Assembly: GCA_949751835.1 (NCBI GenBank)
Contig: CATKHK010000010.1
Location: 616,195 to 680,194 of the forward strand
DNA from: Blepharisma japonicum
Lineage: Eukaryota > Ciliophora > Heterotrichea > Heterotrichida > Blepharismidae
DNA length: 64,000 bases
Direction: 5' to 3'
Part shown: piece by piece, positions 19,019 through 54,453 of the stretch
Position numbering within the stretch: position 1 is the first letter of the stretch
How the letters are laid out: each line of letters opens with the position of its first letter
The notes under the pieces: model-generated
The model's input: the letters and a program-made list of their open reading frames with translations, nothing else
What the model was told of the DNA's origin: nothing
The model's database searches: none
Translations under genes and position numbers: made by a program

Positions 19019-21122
19019 ATGGCGGACCAAATTTGCTTTCAATCTTTTTGCATTAACTCAGCAGAATTCCAATGCAATTGTTCAGTCCCTCAAACTTTAT
19101 GCTGTGGCTTACACCTTGAAGCTCATCTGGTTTCATCAAAAAATGAGCATCAAATTAAGAAAATCCCCGAAAAACCAAATGCGATTATTGAAGCTCGTGA
19201 GAAGGGTACTTTTGAAGAGGCCTACATAATTAAAAATCCTATTATTGAGGCGACTCTTGACAAAATATGTGAGGTTATGTCTATAATCAAAAGAGTAGAA
19301 ACTGAATTATCAAATATATATTTAGGACATAACTATTGTCATGATTTATTTGAAAAATGGCTATATTCAATTAAATTCAGGTTCTTATAGCTTAAAGGAT
19401 TTTACAATTCGTACTCTTTCAACCAGATCTCCTATTTGCTGGAGGAATAGCAACCAATGGTCTTATATAAGGATGAGGCTTGCATTGTTACCCCTAGAGT
19501 GTCGACAGACTAGAAAGACTCCTTAATCAGTCATCATTGATAATATGAAGACACTGAGCTTCTCTATGTCTTCTATCATATCTATGAGAAGAGAAGACAC
19601 CTAGGAAAAAGGAGCCACAGCAACAGAAGGAGTGTGACTTAAAAAGGATCTTGATAATTAATATATGGTCATATTAAGCCAATAGCTTCAGCTTAAAGTT
19701 ACCCACTCCATATAGTCTCCTAAAAGCTAGTAGCTAAGTTATATGTTGAATTTCTAGGCTCATGCTATAAATTTATTTTGGTAACCACGATTATATCCAT
19801 CACCTTTGATAATTTTTATCATAGAGCGAAGTAACGAAAAATTATGAGAAAAGTTCATAGAAGTGGAAAGTGGGATTATAAAGTATTTATGGGATAATGG
19901 AAATAAGAAAGAGTTATGCTGAGGCTTAACGTTGAAGTCATTAGTAATAAATTCAATTATAGAATACAATGAAGTTCTTGATACTCTTAAAACTAATGTA
20001 GAAGAGGCTAGGTCAATTGACAAACTTCCTTTATCATTAATGGAAATAATGTTAATTATAGAAAATGCAGAAAATGAAATAGAATTCCTTGAAAAATTAA
20101 ATGAGATGTTTATATTGGAAAATAAAATAAGAGAGCAATGGCTTGCAAAAATTATACAAAATACAAAAAATATCGAAAAATTAAAATCTAGATTTAACGA
20201 AAAAATAAAAGATCTAGAAAATTGATGTTTACGACGCAAAAGCGACAAAAGCAACAAAAGTACTCTAAAGGCTTCAGAAAATGAAAAAATAGAAAGTCTT
20301 CTTAATAAGCTGAGCTTGATTTCTGAACTAATTAAAAACAATTTCGAGGCTAAGCATCTTTTTCAAATCGAAAATGGAAGCATTCTAATATATGGAATAG
20401 AAACCAGAAAAATTTGCAAAATTAAAGTTTTTCCCTATAAAACTGATCTTCATAGTGGCGGGCAGGCAATTGAGCTTCCTAATAACGAAATTTTTTGCAT
20501 ATGGAATTTTAAATTTGCATGCAAAATTGATTTAAAAACTTCAAAGATTGTAAAAAAGTTTCGAGGTTCTAGTTTCTCTAGTTATTACCCACTTATATAT
20601 TATGATAATTGCGTTTATGCATTTAGTGAAGCGAAAGATTTCGAAAAATATGATTTAATTAAAAATATAAAAACAACACTGCCTAGCCATTCTATTAAAA
20701 ACTCATCTAATTTTACCTGCTGTGTATATAGAAATTCAATTTTATTTTGCACAGAATATAGCGTGAGTCTGTTTAAATTTGAATTTTTAATTGAAAGTTA
20801 TTCGAGGATTTCGCTTAATTGGATAGAATCATTATCTCGAAAAAGTTTGTTTACTGGAAATGCGAGAGCTTATATTTATGATAGTATGAAAGTACTTTTT
20901 GAAAGCGGAATTGATAATGAGTATTCCTGGAGTAGAATTATTGATAATGTCAATAATTTTATTGTAGAAGAAATTAATCAAAGTATTGGAAATTTTCTAT
21001 ATTTTCCTTTAAAGGAGCATGATAGCTTGATAGAAGTATATAAATTTGATATTCCTAATACACGGCTCCACAAAATTGCGACTAAAGATTATCAATATGA
21101 TGGCATATATCAAATAAATTAA
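19019..21122 (+). CDS. A4: family A gene interrupted by a 586-bp insertion (505 aa if removed)
   Basis: The zinc finger (CFQSFC, CNC, CCGLHLEAH) and first part of the coiled coil read from 19019 to 19373. The frame then enters unrelated sequence with stops, and family sequence resumes at about 19960 (IEYNEVLDTLK, RSIDKLPLSLMEIM) through the propeller (AIELPNNEIFC, NCVYAFSEAK, FTGNARAYIYDS, GIDNEYSWSRI) to TAA at 21122. Removing 586 bp between two copies of ATTCAATTA joins EKWLYSI to IEYNEV with no gap and gives 506 codons, close to A5 (509) and A7 (505). As it stands the continuous frame stops at about 19390 after the finger. Confidence 0.8.
19374..19959. mobile_element. 586-bp insertion in A4, flanked by 9-bp direct repeats
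   Basis: ATTCAATTA occurs at 19365-19373 and 19951-19959. Paralogues A5 and A7 have no corresponding sequence. The insertion has no convincing ORF and no clear terminal inverted repeat, contains a diffuse inverted repeat around GAGAAGAGAAGACACC, and its boundaries can be set at a TA dinucleotide at the end of each repeat. It may be an unexcised internal eliminated sequence, a retained MITE-like element, or a simple insertion with target duplication. Confidence 0.75.
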
Positions 21123-22606: not shown

Positions 22607-24133
22607 ATGGCAGACCAAATTTGCTTTCAACCTTTTTGCAATAAACTAGCAGAGTTCCAGTGCAGGTGTTCAATCCCTTGAACATTTTGTTGCGGCTTAC
22701 ACCTTGAAGCTCATCTATTTTCATCAAACGATGAGCATGATATCGAGAAAATCCCAGATAATTTAAATACTAAAATTGAAGCAAGTTCGAAGGATATTTT
22801 TGAAGAAGCCCATAAAATTAGAAATCCTACTATAGATGCGACTCATGACAAAATATGTGAGCAAATATCTAAAATCAATAAGATAAAAACTAAGTTATCA
22901 AATAGGAATTTAGAACATACTTATTGCAATGAGTTACTTGAGAAATGACTAAATTCAATTGATGAATGTAATGAAATTCTTGATATAATTAAAACTGCTT
23001 TTGAAGAGGCCACATCAATTGACGAGCTTCCTTTATCGTTAATGGAAATAATGTTAATTATCGAAAATTCTGAAAGTGAAATAGAATTTATTGAGAAATT
23101 AAATAGGATTTTGTTATTAGAAATTGGAGTTAGGAAACAATGGCTTGCAAAAATTACTAAAAATACCGAAAAAATTGAAAAATTAAAATCTAAGTTTAAC
23201 AGAAAAATAAAAGATGAAGAGAATTGATGTTTCCAGAGAAAAAGTAGCAAAAAATTCTCAGAAAAAGGAAAAATCGCAAGTCTTCTTAATATTCTGAAAT
23301 TAATTTCTGAACTAATTAAAAACAATTTCGAAGCAAAACATTTTTTTCAAATCGGTAATAATTGTCTTCGAATATATGGCACAGAAAACTGAAAAAAATG
23401 CAAAATTAATTTATTTTTTTATAAAAATGATTTCGAACTATATTTCAATCTATATAGTGGGCATGTAGTAGAGCTTTCTAATAATGAAATTTTTTGTTTA
23501 TGGAAATACAATTATGCATTCAAAGTTAATCTAGAAACTTTAAATATTATAAAAGTATATTCTTGCTTTCAAGGCTCTAATTGCTCCAGTCTCATATATT
23601 ATGATAACATCGTTTACGCATTTAGTAAAGAAAAAATTTTCGAAAAATATGATTTAAATAAAAATAAAAAAAAGACATTGCCCAACCATTATATTGAAAA
23701 CACATCTGATTTATCCTGCTGTGTGTATAGAAATTCAATTTTATTTTGCGCTGAAAATAGCTTGACGCTGTTTAAATATGATTTTATAATTGAAAGTTAT
23801 TCGGAGATTCAGGTAAATGAAATAGAATTACTATCTCGAAAAAGACTGTTTACTGGAAATATGAGGGCTTATATTTATGACAATATGAAAGGAATTTTTG
23901 AAAGCAGAATTGATAATGAGTATTCCTGGAGTAGAATTATTGTTAATGTCAATAGTTTTCCTGTAGAAGGTATTGATAGAAGTATTAAAAATTCATTATA
24001 CTTTTCTTTAAAATTGGATCATGAATACTCAATGGGTATATATAAATTTGATTTTTTAAATAAGAAGCTCTATAGGGTAATGGCTGAAGATCATATAGAA
24101 GATCTTAGATATAGACTATTATGTTTTAAGTAA
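22607..24133 (+). CDS. A5: TRIM-like family A protein, 508 aa
   Basis: Zinc finger at residues 6-44 (CFQPFC, CRC, CCGLHLEAH, Trp from TGA inside it). No PYEH linker; the coiled coil spans about 80-240 (TSIDELPLSLMEIMLIIEN), the propeller about 260-500 (VVELSNNEIFC, VYAFSKEK, CVYRNSILFCAENS, FTGNMRAYIYDN, RIDNEYSWSRI). Four TGA codons are Trp; ends at TAA. Very close to A7 throughout, and to A4 once its insertion is removed, so the three form a recent subgroup. TTTTATAGAAT lies 4 bp before the ATG. Confidence 0.82.
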
Positions 24134-29849: not shown

Positions 29850-31258
29850 TTGCTTAGAAATTGGAAGTTCTGAGTAGCTTTCAATTAAAAATAATAATTT
29901 TTGGTCACATTTGTGCAAAATATAATTGAATTTCGATAAATTATGCAAGAAAATGCATCATTTGAAGGACTGGCAAGATTATTTTTCTATTTTCTTTTAA
30001 ATCATATTTTTCCAAATAATAAATATCATGTCTACAAAAATATAAACTGAGTGCATAAATACAGTTAGTGTGATATATAAGCGAATGGACTTTTCCTTTG
30101 GAAAATGACAAAATTTTGACAACTTCCATAGTTTCGACATCAAATTTGCATGCAGTACCGCTATTTCATAAACAAAAAATTTCAGATTCCGAATTATCAT
30201 GCAAATTGGATCCATTAATTGCCTTCTAAGCTCAGCTAGCAGGTCCATGTTTATGAGGATTTTCTTTAGAAGAAAGAAAAAAATTTGTCTGCATTAATAT
30301 TTTTAAATATTAATTGAGAATTTGAAGTTACCCATTCATTAGATTAACAAGTTTTTGGTATTTTATAAGCTTCAATGAATAACTATTCCTCATCTGCCTT
30401 CTCAATCAAGATTGCATTTTATATAATTTACTAATAAATTGAGTTCATAAACCATCCTTATTTTTATCTTTTTTACTCAAGTGATTGCTAACTAGAAATT
30501 CCAATAATAATGCTTCATTTAAAATTTCAAGAAAATCTATTTCTTTTTCAACATTCTCTAGAGTTTCTATTATTTAAATTGGTGATAAAAAGAACTCATC
30601 AATATTCTTTGACATTTCATGAGCTGATTTCATATTGCATCATATTACTTAATTTATCTTTTGCCTCTATTCTGACCTTCTATACACATCTTCGCAAGGA
30701 AATTTTCTCTTTCGGTTTACTCTTATTTCTCATATATGCCTGCCTCACATTGCGATTTGCTCCTCCTAATCCCTAGAAGTCTTTTGAGAATTCAAGAAAA
30801 CAGTAAACACTAGTGGCTTGCAGTTTCACCCGTTTTGAATTATTCAGACTACTTAATTAAGTTTCCTAACTTTTAATTAGCAATAGAAAGATTTAAAATA
30901 GATAAACAAATGATGGTAACCTATTAAAGTAATACTTAGCATTTTCTCTCTATTGCACAGAAATCAATATTAAAGTCTACTCTATACTAATAGAAGGCAG
31001 TTATAGGAAATAAGAATTCAAAGAGTGAATTACCTTTTTGTCTAAAGCTGTTTTATTATGATTTAAGGCTGATTTCAGGGAATTTTTATTATTGGACTTA
31101 CAATCGTCATTCCTTTTCTTAATAGAATGCTGTTTATTAGATGACCGTGGATGACTTTCAAGATGTGAGCTGCATCACATTGTTTGAGGGACTGAACAAT
31201 TGCACTGATATTCTGCAGGTTCCTTACAAATGAGCTCAAAGCGAATAAAGTCTGACAT
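29850..31258 (-). pseudogene. decayed family A copy (A8/A12-like), inverted
   Basis: From an ATG at 31258 the minus strand encodes a finger with its first Cys replaced by Arg (FIRFELIC, CNC, WCSSHLESH). Further down come coiled-coil codons at about 30510-30570 (NVEKEIDFLEILNEALLLE) and propeller codons at about 29945-30200 (ETMEVVKILSFSKGK, YYLEKYDLKENRK). Multiple stops and frame changes separate them. Open frames on the plus strand here are shadows. Confidence 0.65.
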
Positions 31259-35097: not shown

Positions 35098-35949
35098 ATA
35101 AGAAAATGCTACATATTATTTTTAAAGCAGATTTTACATCTAAAAGCTTCTGCCAATAAGGAACTTCATACCTTGAGCTTTGATTGATGCCGAAACATAT
35201 CATCTCCATGAGTACCATAGGCTAGATTTTATAGATGGAATCAACTGAAGGTTACCTATCCCAATAGTGTATTTTCAAATATGAATAAATAAATTTAAAC
35301 AAGATTTCAATTAAAAATAAAATTTATACATAAAAGAATATGCAATTTTGTCTTTTCATTTGAGAAGCTCTAATTTAATCACTGAGGCTTGCATTGTTAT
35401 TATAAATAGTTAATATAGAATTTCAAAATTAAGCTCATTTACAGACGCAAAATCTTTTAAATCAAAGATTATAATAATTAAAATTAAACTGAGACTAAAA
35501 CGTTATTAAGAGAGTGATTTCAGCTTTGTTTTAAATATTACTCTTTTTTATATTTCTAATAAATTTCCAGTACACATGCTTAAATCATAGTAAATCTATT
35601 ATGAAATAAGAACATTTTCTTATCAAATACAGAATTCCCACAAGCTGATAAAAGAAGCATAAGAGTAGAAAATTTGATAGCAAGGCCATCGAAGCAATTG
35701 CGCCGATGCCAAGTCGAAATGATGCAAGCTACAGTCTGTTGAGTCGACAAATAAATTTTGAAAATTTTGAAGGCAATCTTGGGATTTTATTTTTAAAATT
35801 TATTACTTTCAGAATGAGATGGTATAGAAAAATGATTTAGTTCAGATTCTAATCAGCTTTATAGAATTTGGATTTAAATAAAAGTTTATAATCATCCTCT
35901 GAAATAATGAGATAAAGCAATTAATTCTGAAAGAGAATAATATATAATC
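35098..35949 (+). repeat. family B upstream block, copy before B3
   Basis: Near-identical in layout to 63025-63951, more distantly related to the copies before B2 and B4. Includes GCTACAGTCTGTTGA at about 35729. Ends in AATATATAATC before the ATG. No gene seen. Confidence 0.6.
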
Positions 35950-38997: not shown

Positions 38998-40512
38998 ATG
39001 GCAGACCAAATATGCTTTCAACCTTTTTGCAATAAACTAGCAGAATTCCAGTGCAACTGTTCAATCCCTTGCACATTTTTTTGTGGCTTACACCTTGAAG
39101 CTCATCTATTTTCATCAAACGATAAGCATGATATCAAGAAAATTCCAAAAAATTTAAATACTAAAATTGAAGCAAGTTCGAAGAATACTTTTGAAGAAGT
39201 CCATAAAATTAGAAACCCTACTATAGATGCGACTCATGATACAATATGTGAGCAAATATCTAAAATCAATAAGATAAAAACTAAGTTATCAACTAGGAAT
39301 TTAGAATATAATTATTGCAATGATTTATTGGAGAAATGACTAAATTCAATTAATGAATGTAATGGAGTTCTTGATAGAATTAAAACTGCTTTTGAAAAGG
39401 CTATATCAATTGACGAGCTTCCTTTATCCTTAACGGAAATAAGGCTAATTATAGAAAATGCTGAAAGTGAAATAGAATTTATTGAGAAATTAAATAGGAT
39501 TTTGTTATTAGAAATTGAAGTTAGGAAGCAATGGCTTGCAAAAATTACTAAAAATACCGAAAGGGTTGAAAAATTAAAATCTAAGTTTAACAGAGAAATA
39601 AAAGATGAAGAGAATTGATGTTTACAGAGAAAAAATGACAAAAAAATTTCAGAAAAAGAAAAAATTGCCAATCTTCTTAATAAGTTGAAATTAATTTCTG
39701 AACTAATTAAAAACAATTTCGAAGCAAAATATTTTTTTCAAACTGATGATGATAATCTTTGAATATATGGCACAGAAACCCGAAAAAAATGCAACATTAA
39801 ATCATTTAAAGATGATTTGAAACTATATTTTTCATATGGTGGGCATGTAGCAGAGCTTCCTAACAATGAAATTTTTTGTTTAAAGAGATACAATTACGCA
39901 TGCAAAATTAATCTAGAAACTTTAACTATTATAAAAATATATCGTTGCTTTGAAGCCTATAATTGCTTCAGTCTCATATATTATGACAACAGCATTTACG
40001 CATTTAGTGAAGCAAAAATTTTCGAAAAATATGATTTAATTAAAAATAAAAAACAGACATTGCCAAACCATTATATTGAAAGCTCATCTGATTTATCCTG
40101 CTGTGTGTATAGAAATTCAATTTTATTTTGCGCTGAAAATAGCTTGACGCTGTTTAAATATGATATTATAATTGAAAGTTATTCGGAGATTCTGGTAAAT
40201 GAAATAGAATTACAATCTTGAAAAAGACTGTTTACTGGAAATATGAGGGCTTATATTTATGACAATAAGAAAGGAATTTTTGAAAGCGGAATTGATAATG
40301 AGTATTCCTGGAGTAGAATTATTGATAATGTCAATAGTTTTCCTGCAGACAGTATTGATAGAAGTATTAAAAATTCATCATACTTTTCTTTAAAATTGGA
40401 TCATGAATACTCAATGGGTATATATAAATTTGATTTTTTAAATAAGAAGCTCTATAGGGTAATGGCTCAAAATCATATAAAAGATCTTAGACATAGACTA
40501 TTAATTTTTTAA
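38998..40512 (+). CDS. A7: TRIM-like family A protein, 504 aa
   Basis: Zinc finger (CFQPFC, CNC, FCGLHLEAH), coiled coil at about 80-240 (SIDELPLSLTEIRLIIEN), propeller to the end (VAELPNNEIFC, IYAFSEAK, CVYRNSILFCAENS, FTGNMRAYIYDN, GIDNEYSWSRI). TGA is Trp at four places, including one in the propeller (QSWKRL) where A5 has Arg. Ends at TAA. It is the closest paralogue of A5, and flanks on both sides are also shared, showing a segmental duplication. Confidence 0.82.
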
Positions 40513-40608: not shown

Positions 40609-40937
40609 ATATGAATAATTAAATTAATTAATTAACTAGACAATAAGATAAGAATCATCAATATCTTACAAAAATGTAGAAAGCAAACTCATATTTATAA
40701 AAAATTGATATTTATCCTTATTATTTTTAAGCAAATTATCTTTTGAATAGCTTAGATAAGAAATGGCAATTCTATAAAATAAAAAATGGGAGATTTAGTT
40801 TGCTTTAAATCTTTATGGAAAGCTAGCAAAATACAAGTGTAATTGTTCATTTCCTCAAACATTTTGATGCGGCTATCATCTAGCCATTCATCTAGTTTCA
40901 TCTAATAATAGGGACCCTATTGAAGCCATTACTATCT
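40609..40937 (+). pseudogene. 5' stub of an A6-like gene with its promoter flank
   Basis: The A6 5' flank is copied, followed by an ATG at 40786 and the finger (GDLVCFKS); a 2-base loss at ATGGAAAGC breaks the frame and a TAA follows. Similarity ends at about 40936 (ATTGAAGCCATTACT). Only finger-coding DNA remains. Confidence 0.7.
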
Positions 40938-41004
40938 TGCCTCCAAGAATAGCAAGATTTTACTTATAAGTCTTTTGGCATATGTCGATTAGGGCAGTTG
41001 AAAT

Positions 41005-49793: not shown

Positions 49794-49958
49794 ATGATAG
49801 ATTTTAGTTGCTTTGAATCCTTTTGTGAGAAGAAAGCAGATTTCAAATGCCATTGATCATTTTTTCCTTCATTTTGATGCAGCTTTCACCTGTCAAATCA
49901 TTTAGCTTCATCAAATATTGAGCATCCTGTTGAACCGATTACTATTTCTCCTTGATAA
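49794..49958 (+). pseudogene. finger-only stub of a family A gene
   Basis: A 54-codon frame from ATG to TAA encodes the finger (CFESFC, KCH, WCSFHLSNH) with three TGA as Trp, and stops where the linker should begin (EHPVEPIT). The coiled coil and propeller are missing. If expressed it would be a finger-only protein. Confidence 0.6.
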
Positions 49959-52972: not shown

Positions 52973-54453
52973 ATGTCAAATTGTTTTTGCTTTGAATTTC
53001 TTTGCGAGAATAAAGCAGATATTCAGTGCAATTGCACAGTCCCTAAAACTTATTGATGCTTCTCTCACCTGGAAAATCATTTAATTTCATCATCAAATAA
53101 TGAGCATTCTTATCAAATCATTACTAAGCAAAACAACTTTACTCCTTCACAAGAGATAGATGAAGATTGCTTTGAAGAGCTCAATTTGAAAGCGGATGAA
53201 GCTATGAAGACGATTTTTGTTCAAATTAGCAAGCAAATATCTGCTCTCAAAAAAATAGAAATGAAGCTGAATGCCCAATTTCATAGTCCAAGCTGTTCGA
53301 AATATTGCTTTCAAATGGGCGATTGAAAATTGAAGAATACAAAGATGTTCTTATTCAACTTAAAAGCAGTGTAAAATGTGCTACTTCAATAGACGATTTC
53401 CCTTTATCACTAATGGAAATCATAATGATAGTAGAAAATGTTGAATCGGAAGTCAAATTCCTTGAAAAATTAAATGAAGTTTTATTATTAGAAAATGAAG
53501 TTAAAAATCATGGACTGATAATAACTATTGAAAGCTCAGAGAATCCTAATGATTTAAATTCTGAATTTAATAGGAAAAGAAAAGATATTGAAGGATGATG
53601 CTCTCAGCACAAAAACAAAGATGATTCAAATATTATAAATCTCAAAAATGGACTGACGCAAATTTCTAAATTAATTCAAAACAATTTTGAATTCAAACGT
53701 TTTTTCAGAGTTAAGTGATATACCCTTGAAATATATTGCGTAGAACCCTCAAAAAAATTAACTTTTCAAATTCTAACAGAAAAATTGGGATTATTTCATA
53801 AATATGCCCATAATGCAATTGAGATTCCCAATTATAAATTATTTTGCTTACTTGAATTTAGAAATGCATGCATAATTGATCTAAAAACTATGAGTATAAT
53901 TAAAACATTGCCAGCATCTTACGGAGCCAATCAATTTTCATTTGTTTATTATTTAAACTGTGTTTATGTACTTAGTTCGACATCTCATGACTCTAGATCA
54001 ATTTTTTTGGAAAAATATGATCTGAGTAATAATAGAAAAGCATGCTTACCCAAACCTAATATAAATTATATAAATGCATCATGTGACTTTAATTGTGCTA
54101 TATATCGAGGCTCAATTTTGTTTTGTGCAAAAGATAGCTTTGATTTATATAAATTTGATCTCGAAATAAGAAGCTCTTCAAAACTTCCAACATTTGGACT
54201 TAACTCATTTTCTATTAAAGTGCTTCTTATTAAAAATGAGAGAGTTTATGCAATTGATTTTGAATCTGGGATTTTTGAAAGCGAATTTGATAATGAGTAT
54301 GCTTGAAGTAAACTTGGCAAATTTCAAAATAATAATTTTGGAGAAGATCTTAATATTAGTCCAGATTATTTTTCTGTTATGGAAAGCAGATCATTGCAAG
54401 TATATAAATTTGATTTAGGCAGCAGACGGATCGAAAAAGTTGAATACGATTAA
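52973..54453 (+). pseudogene. A10: family A gene with one frameshift
   Basis: The finger (CFEFLC, CNC, CFSHLENH) and start of the coiled coil read from ATG 52973. Near 53295-53305 (TTCGAAATATTGC) the frame shifts by one base relative to paralogues; the family sequence continues as LLSNGRLKIEEYKD through the coiled coil (TSIDDFPLSLMEIIMIVEN) and propeller (AIEIPNYKLFC, CVYVLSSTS, SILFCAKDS, EFDNEYAW) to TAA. The first frame ends shortly after the shift. No GT-AG intron of 15-16 nt fits. A recent pseudogene, a sequencing error or ribosomal frameshifting are the options. Confidence 0.7.

Follow-up and report, generated by a model that had tools for sequence, protein, structure and literature searches.

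How did one gene of a tandem family in Blepharisma come to be split by several hundred base pairs of non-coding DNA, and is this DNA removed again in somatic development? The gene, A4, lies on contig C10 in the 64,000-nucleotide stretch analyzed here (the window). The initial annotation, made from the sequence alone, described a 586-bp insertion whose exact removal restores the full gene and gave it two possible origins, either an internal eliminated sequence (IES) retained in this molecule or a recent insertion that duplicated its target. The second is now well supported by an empty site in the DNA of sister genes. The retained IES is still a candidate.

The 9-bp repeat ATTCAATTA is indeed present at positions 19365-19373 and 19951-19959, 586 bp from start to start, and its two copies enclose an interior of 577 bp (19374-19950). 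Since 586 leaves a remainder of 1 when divided by three, the frame is not kept across the repeat. Read from the ATG at 19019, A4 is open for 123 codons and then meets a stop codon within the insert (19388-19390). Exact removal of the 586 bp gives, as had been proposed, 506 codons, corresponding to 505 residues and the TAA at 21120-21122, with TGA read as tryptophan. The joined protein is 61 and 60% identical to its two nearest sisters, B (22607) and C (38998), both of which align without a gap at the joint, and the coil is continuous. Among 19,200 trial combinations of left and right cuts, 5,399 were stop-free and the 17 with the highest scores against B and C all delete exactly 586 bp. Precise removal would therefore restore the coding sequence at this site, a property asked of an IES. 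A4 is a gene interrupted by 586 bp and restored by their exact deletion. The features of the locus are collected in Table 1.

Table 1. Features of the A4 locus and of the two uninterrupted sister copies (positions in the window).
Feature	Position	Strand	Evidence
5' part of A4: start codon, Cys/His-rich N-terminus, start of the helical region	19019..19361	+	Joined-protein identity 60-61% to B/C; open from the ATG
Left copy of the probable target duplication, TATATTCAATTA	19362..19373	+	Exact over 9 bp, one mismatch over 12 bp; begins and ends with TA; repeat family D4
Inserted DNA	19374..19947	.	Non-coding; single genome occurrence found; about 34% GC
Right copy of the probable target duplication, TAAATTCAATTA	19948..19959	+	Identical to sister C; 11/12 bases as sister B
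3' part of A4: remaining helical region and predicted beta-propeller	19960..21122	+	Stop TAA 21120-21122
Sister copy B, uninterrupted, empty site CTAAATTCAATTGATG	22607..24133	+	Alignment to joined A4; DNA at the site
Sister copy C, uninterrupted, empty site CTAAATTCAATTAATG	38998..40512	+	Alignment to joined A4; DNA at the site

The DNA of the sisters also refines the extent of the duplication. The repeat in A4 extends to 12 bp, of which 11 are identical between TATATTCAATTA and TAAATTCAATTA, and both sisters carry TAAATTCAATT. At the site itself, A4 has CTATATTCAATTA on the left and ATAAATTCAATTA on the right, to be compared with CTAAATTCAATTGATG in B and CTAAATTCAATTAATG in C, and it is the right copy that retains the state of the sisters. 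The top joins, which begin one to three bases to the left of the 9-bp register, score 595 vs. 579 for that register. Among them is the join that cuts at the two TAs, 19362 and 19948, and their product reads KWLNSI, as in both sisters, whereas the 9-bp register encodes KWLYSI. From this comparison, the target duplication is probably the 12-bp TAAATTCAATTA, its left copy having undergone one later change; the other possibility is a 9-bp duplication next to three bases that match by chance, such a match having a probability of 0.046. The locus thus carries a target site duplication, as a cut-and-paste transposon or a MITE would leave, together with the TA-containing direct repeat that defines the TA-bound class of IESs in published work on Blepharisma stoltei (PMC9942856).

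The weight of the repeat and of the restored frame was evaluated against chance. Base composition gives a probability of about 1.7e-5 that a given joint is flanked by a 9-bp repeat, or 2e-4 if 12 registers are considered. In the window, 9-bp repeats at a spacing of 586 are found at 20 of 63,250 positions, in only two places (A4 itself and 36900), and repeats at random spacing were obtained in 38 of 200,000 draws. The 9-mer ATTCAATTA is not rare, with seven places on the plus strand of the window and two on the minus strand. Deletion between 9-bp repeats produces 101 open-frame joins on the plus strand vs. 64-73 in ten shifted controls, and two on the minus strand vs. 4-19 in shifted controls; the plus-strand excess is probably due to the tandem paralogues. 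Frame restoration on its own was therefore rejected as evidence, such joins being common in an AT-rich tandem array. Hence, the case for A4 rests on gap-free homology.

The family to which A4 belongs forms a tandem array of genes having a Cys/His-rich N-terminus, a helical coil and a predicted beta-propeller. A4 has no Pfam family match at E values up to 1. A structural model of sister B (mean pLDDT 65.6, pTM 0.49, eight sequences) has helices at residues 52 to 238 and strands after 246. Among the 50 Foldseek matches listed, most are by their titles beta-propeller proteins of unrelated kinds, with low TM-scores of about 0.24-0.32 of the query; from the model and these weak PDB matches, the C-terminal part of the A4 family is predicted to be a beta-propeller. 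The insert falls at about residue 118, within a predicted helix (108-134). Counting the copies whose N-terminal region could be located in the window, and leaving aside an N-terminal fragment (40817-40954) and more distant C-terminal matches, the family has 14 members, nine of which have a long open frame. The five broken ones are A4, the copies at 49794, 52973, and 54998, and a minus-strand copy near 29853-31258. With five of 14 copies broken in the window, a broken A4 is unremarkable, and further apparently broken copies are found on contigs C181, C202, and C115.

Several observations on these relatives can be added. In the copy at 52973, there is one frame change within about 30 bases (53270-53305), by eye a small indel rather than an intron, which looks like a pseudogene or a sequencing error. 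One copy on C115 is interrupted by about 369 bp on the minus strand (C115:102545-102913; L037:2693-3061). The join bounded by TCCA is by eye the most like the relatives among seven stop-free joins listed with a repeat of at least 4 bp; this stretch has a single occurrence found in the genome, and its boundaries, which show no clean repeat, are uncertain. Sisters B and C have a dN/dS of about 1.0 (0.68-1.72), with frames still open. In their propeller half, dN is 0.100 vs. a dS of 0.043 (Fisher p 0.04, from rounded counts and estimated site totals), and diversifying selection is possible from these counts. Finally, the array (12009-62880) reaches near the right end of C10, where the window also ends (64000) and where the last 300 bases carry no telomere repeats, and relatives crowd the small contigs C181 and C202. 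This arrangement suggests an assembly break in a repetitive cluster.

The content of the inserted DNA gives few indications of its nature. It has 8-13 stops per frame and a longest stop-free stretch of 63 codons, and no transposase or long coding frame was found within it. In tblastx comparisons with the masked window, with parts of C181, C202, and C115 and with some other loci, no coding remnant was detected (best E value 0.65 among the matches listed), and nhmmer gave no match at E values up to 50. Structured RNA was ruled out as its identity, with no Rfam match inside the insert (one sub-threshold match lies outside it) and fold z-scores of -0.34 and -0.02. Plasmid or phage DNA was ruled out as its source, the collections of both giving no match. 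Its GC content of 34.3% is reached by 50 of 635 window stretches of equal size. As for terminal structure, the inverted repeat typical of a cut-and-paste transposon or a MITE was not found above chance. Compared in inverted orientation, the two 60-base ends match best over 8 bases. This match starts some 33-51 bases inward from the ends of the insert and is reached in 30 of 200 shuffles with the repeats and in 21 of 200 of the interior only. No end-to-end inverted pair appears among the matches listed (25 of 28 pairs).

As the initial annotation had suggested, the insert was searched for in the genome (45.2 Mb in 224 contigs, DNA search, E up to 10), and it matched only itself, a result that is no proof of rarity since the search skips very common words. 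Each 24-base end likewise has one place in the genome with up to three mismatches allowed. The further copies expected of a cut-and-paste transposon or a MITE are thus not seen in this somatic-type assembly. Two weak resemblances, one between the right end of the insert and the N-terminal DNA of A4 (30 bp, 86.7%, E 0.12) and the other an identity over 17 bases at 35383 (E 0.036), are taken as chance. An insertion-free A4 was not found in the assembly either; a search with the joined flanks returned the two halves of A4 and then only paralogues of at most 79% identity (14 of 16 matches), the nearest being at 79 and 78%. Topic searches of openly licensed papers on Blepharisma, other ciliates and IESs in general, made by words rather than by sequence, gave no listing that names the locus.

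Whether the insert stands in a somatic or a germline molecule bears directly on its interpretation. A 16-base pattern of the telomere repeat CCCTAACA has 92 forward and 104 reverse matches in the genome vs. none in a reversed control, and the places listed include several contig ends. All 134 scored kinase domains span some 740-885 bp, close to full length, without long interruption; in ten, the match includes a TAA or TAG, which may reflect small introns or lesions. These are the best 134 of 1185 candidates, and the survey, biased to intact genes, yields no rate of retained inserts. Because of the telomere repeats and of the kinase domains free of long interruptions, the assembly looks to be of the somatic (macronuclear) type. 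Host genes contain in-frame TGA codons, and the PiggyBac DDE family matches 12 stretches of the genome, of which three are full length and free of TAA and TAG and the others are degraded. Telomere repeat, in-frame TGA and PiggyBac-type DDE genes all fit Blepharisma. GC content is 29% in the window and 31% in 22.7 kb of other loci. The somatic genome of B. stoltei is reported at 41 Mb and 33.5% GC (PMC9942856), with the same telomere repeat, UGA as a tryptophan codon and introns predominantly of 15 and 16 bp (PMC9942806).

The TA-bound IESs of B. stoltei have much in common with the A4 insert. They are intragenic, carry a TA-containing direct repeat, restore the frame upon removal, are similar in length and GC content, and occur in a genome with PiggyBac-type homologues. 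In contrast, the A4 insert is seen in a somatic-type assembly without observed excision, and its repeat is longer than the TA, TAT, and TATA common at B. stoltei IESs. Moreover, no repeat family was found for it, whereas B. stoltei IESs of at least 115 bp are described as mostly repetitive in the published germline assembly (PMC9942856).

Bogo and BogoMITE (MITIES) of Blepharisma resemble the insert as non-coding ciliate DNA with a target duplication. However, the insert ends are by eye not like the Bogo terminal repeat, and the duplication and the length differ from the 3-bp TAA/TTA and the roughly 389 bp of these elements. A Bogo element was ruled out as the identity of the insert by its ends and by a genome search for the Bogo terminal repeat. 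Elsewhere in the genome, this repeat end has eight matches with two mismatches (L053-L060; none in the reversed control), two of which lie about 600 bp or less from the telomeric end of C38; they are possible degenerate Bogo-type remnants in somatic DNA. A variable duplication of 9-12 bp would fit the insertion of a non-LTR retrotransposon. In Blepharisma macronuclei, insertions of such elements (LINE/RTE-X) are reported as retained or only partly excised (PMC9942856). Unlike them, the A4 insert has no coding remnant, no clear tail by eye, and no second copy found in the somatic assembly.

On balance, we lean toward a recent insertion that duplicated its target, is excised poorly or not at all, and leaves A4 broken in this molecule. 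Against this reading, mobile elements are not usually represented by a unique insert, and neither a terminal inverted repeat above chance nor a transposase or long coding frame was found. Also, the intact remainder of A4 and the single mismatch in the 12 bp favor a selected gene 1.8-3.6 fold, a weak factor obtained under rough assumptions and assumed priors. This decay factor speaks for a less probable but plausible reading, that of a true IES. A domesticated PiggyBac-type excisase would then cut at the TA-containing repeats in part of the somatic copies, A4 would be functional there, and the assembly would show the retained form. TA stands at both ends of the 12-bp repeat, and the best of the 5,399 stop-free joins fits a TA cut at 19362/19948 that restores the Asn of the sisters. 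Length and GC content are within the range published for B. stoltei IESs (median 255 bp, 90th percentile 603 bp, 33.3% GC; PMC9942856). The PiggyBac DDE family is present, A4 has no other disabling change, and a germline-limited element would be expected to have content that is unique in a somatic assembly. However, the insert stands in the consensus of a somatic-type assembly, which argues against efficient excision, and neither the excised form in the assembly nor an inverted terminal repeat above chance was found. In B. stoltei, residual IES retention in macronuclear DNA is reported as 0.02 or less, some retrotransposon loci in Blepharisma are reported as partly excised, and excision is described by the authors as a continuum (PMC9942856). 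It is improbable that A4 is developmentally switchable, the share of somatic copies or lineages that lose its TA-ended insert being variable and heritable variation in excision turning a member of a fast-diverging tandem family on or off.

The single, non-coding occurrence without terminal structure would also suit filler DNA (organellar, bacterial or unassembled) caught, without any part played by a mobile element, at a staggered double-strand break, and a fill-in of 9-12 bp would likewise duplicate the target. We regard this as distinctly improbable: the plasmid and phage collections gave no match, and the assembly contains a cox1-bearing contig, C204, maybe a partial organelle genome, which the insert did not match. 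Even less credit can be given to the idea that the insert is a long intron left unspliced or that the assembly is chimeric here. Among the GT-AG pairs tried (donors within 19251-19420, acceptors within 19702-20061), 22 preserve an open frame longer than 480 codons. On visual inspection, however, the family sequence at the joint is recovered at none of these 22 junctions, and B. stoltei introns are predominantly of 15 and 16 bp (PMC9942806). Splicing was rejected as an explanation, no GT-AG ends giving the family joint having been found in these ranges. A chimera would not be expected to carry a target duplication.

Under the preferred reading of a recent, unexcised insertion, 574-577 bp of non-coding DNA entered the coil segment of A4 and duplicated a target of 9-12 bp, as shown by the repeat, the empty site of the sisters and the single occurrence found. 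The source would probably be a germline-limited or since-lost element, because duplicating the target takes a staggered cut and the somatic-type assembly yielded no second copy. Since the assembled somatic molecule carries the insert, the latter would be not or poorly excised in somatic development. The A4 product that this molecule can encode is limited to about 123 residues. Further disabling changes, which according to the initial annotation would mark a dead gene, were looked for in A4 and none was found beyond the insert, in agreement with both readings. Because the rest of A4 is free of such changes, the event, if the gene died at insertion, would be recent, at less than about 2-5% neutral divergence. 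In simulations, the chance that 505 codons show no lesion is 0.21 at 1% and 0.057 at 2% neutral divergence with an indel ratio of 0.05, and 0.24 at 2% and 0.03 at 5% without indels.

Without excision, A4 is a broken copy of an ordinary sort and serves as a caution: in AT-rich tandem arrays, chance alone often lets a deletion between short repeats restore a reading frame. If excision is shown, A4 would be a single-site example, in an early-branching ciliate lineage, of a fresh insertion becoming, or failing to become, an eliminated sequence.
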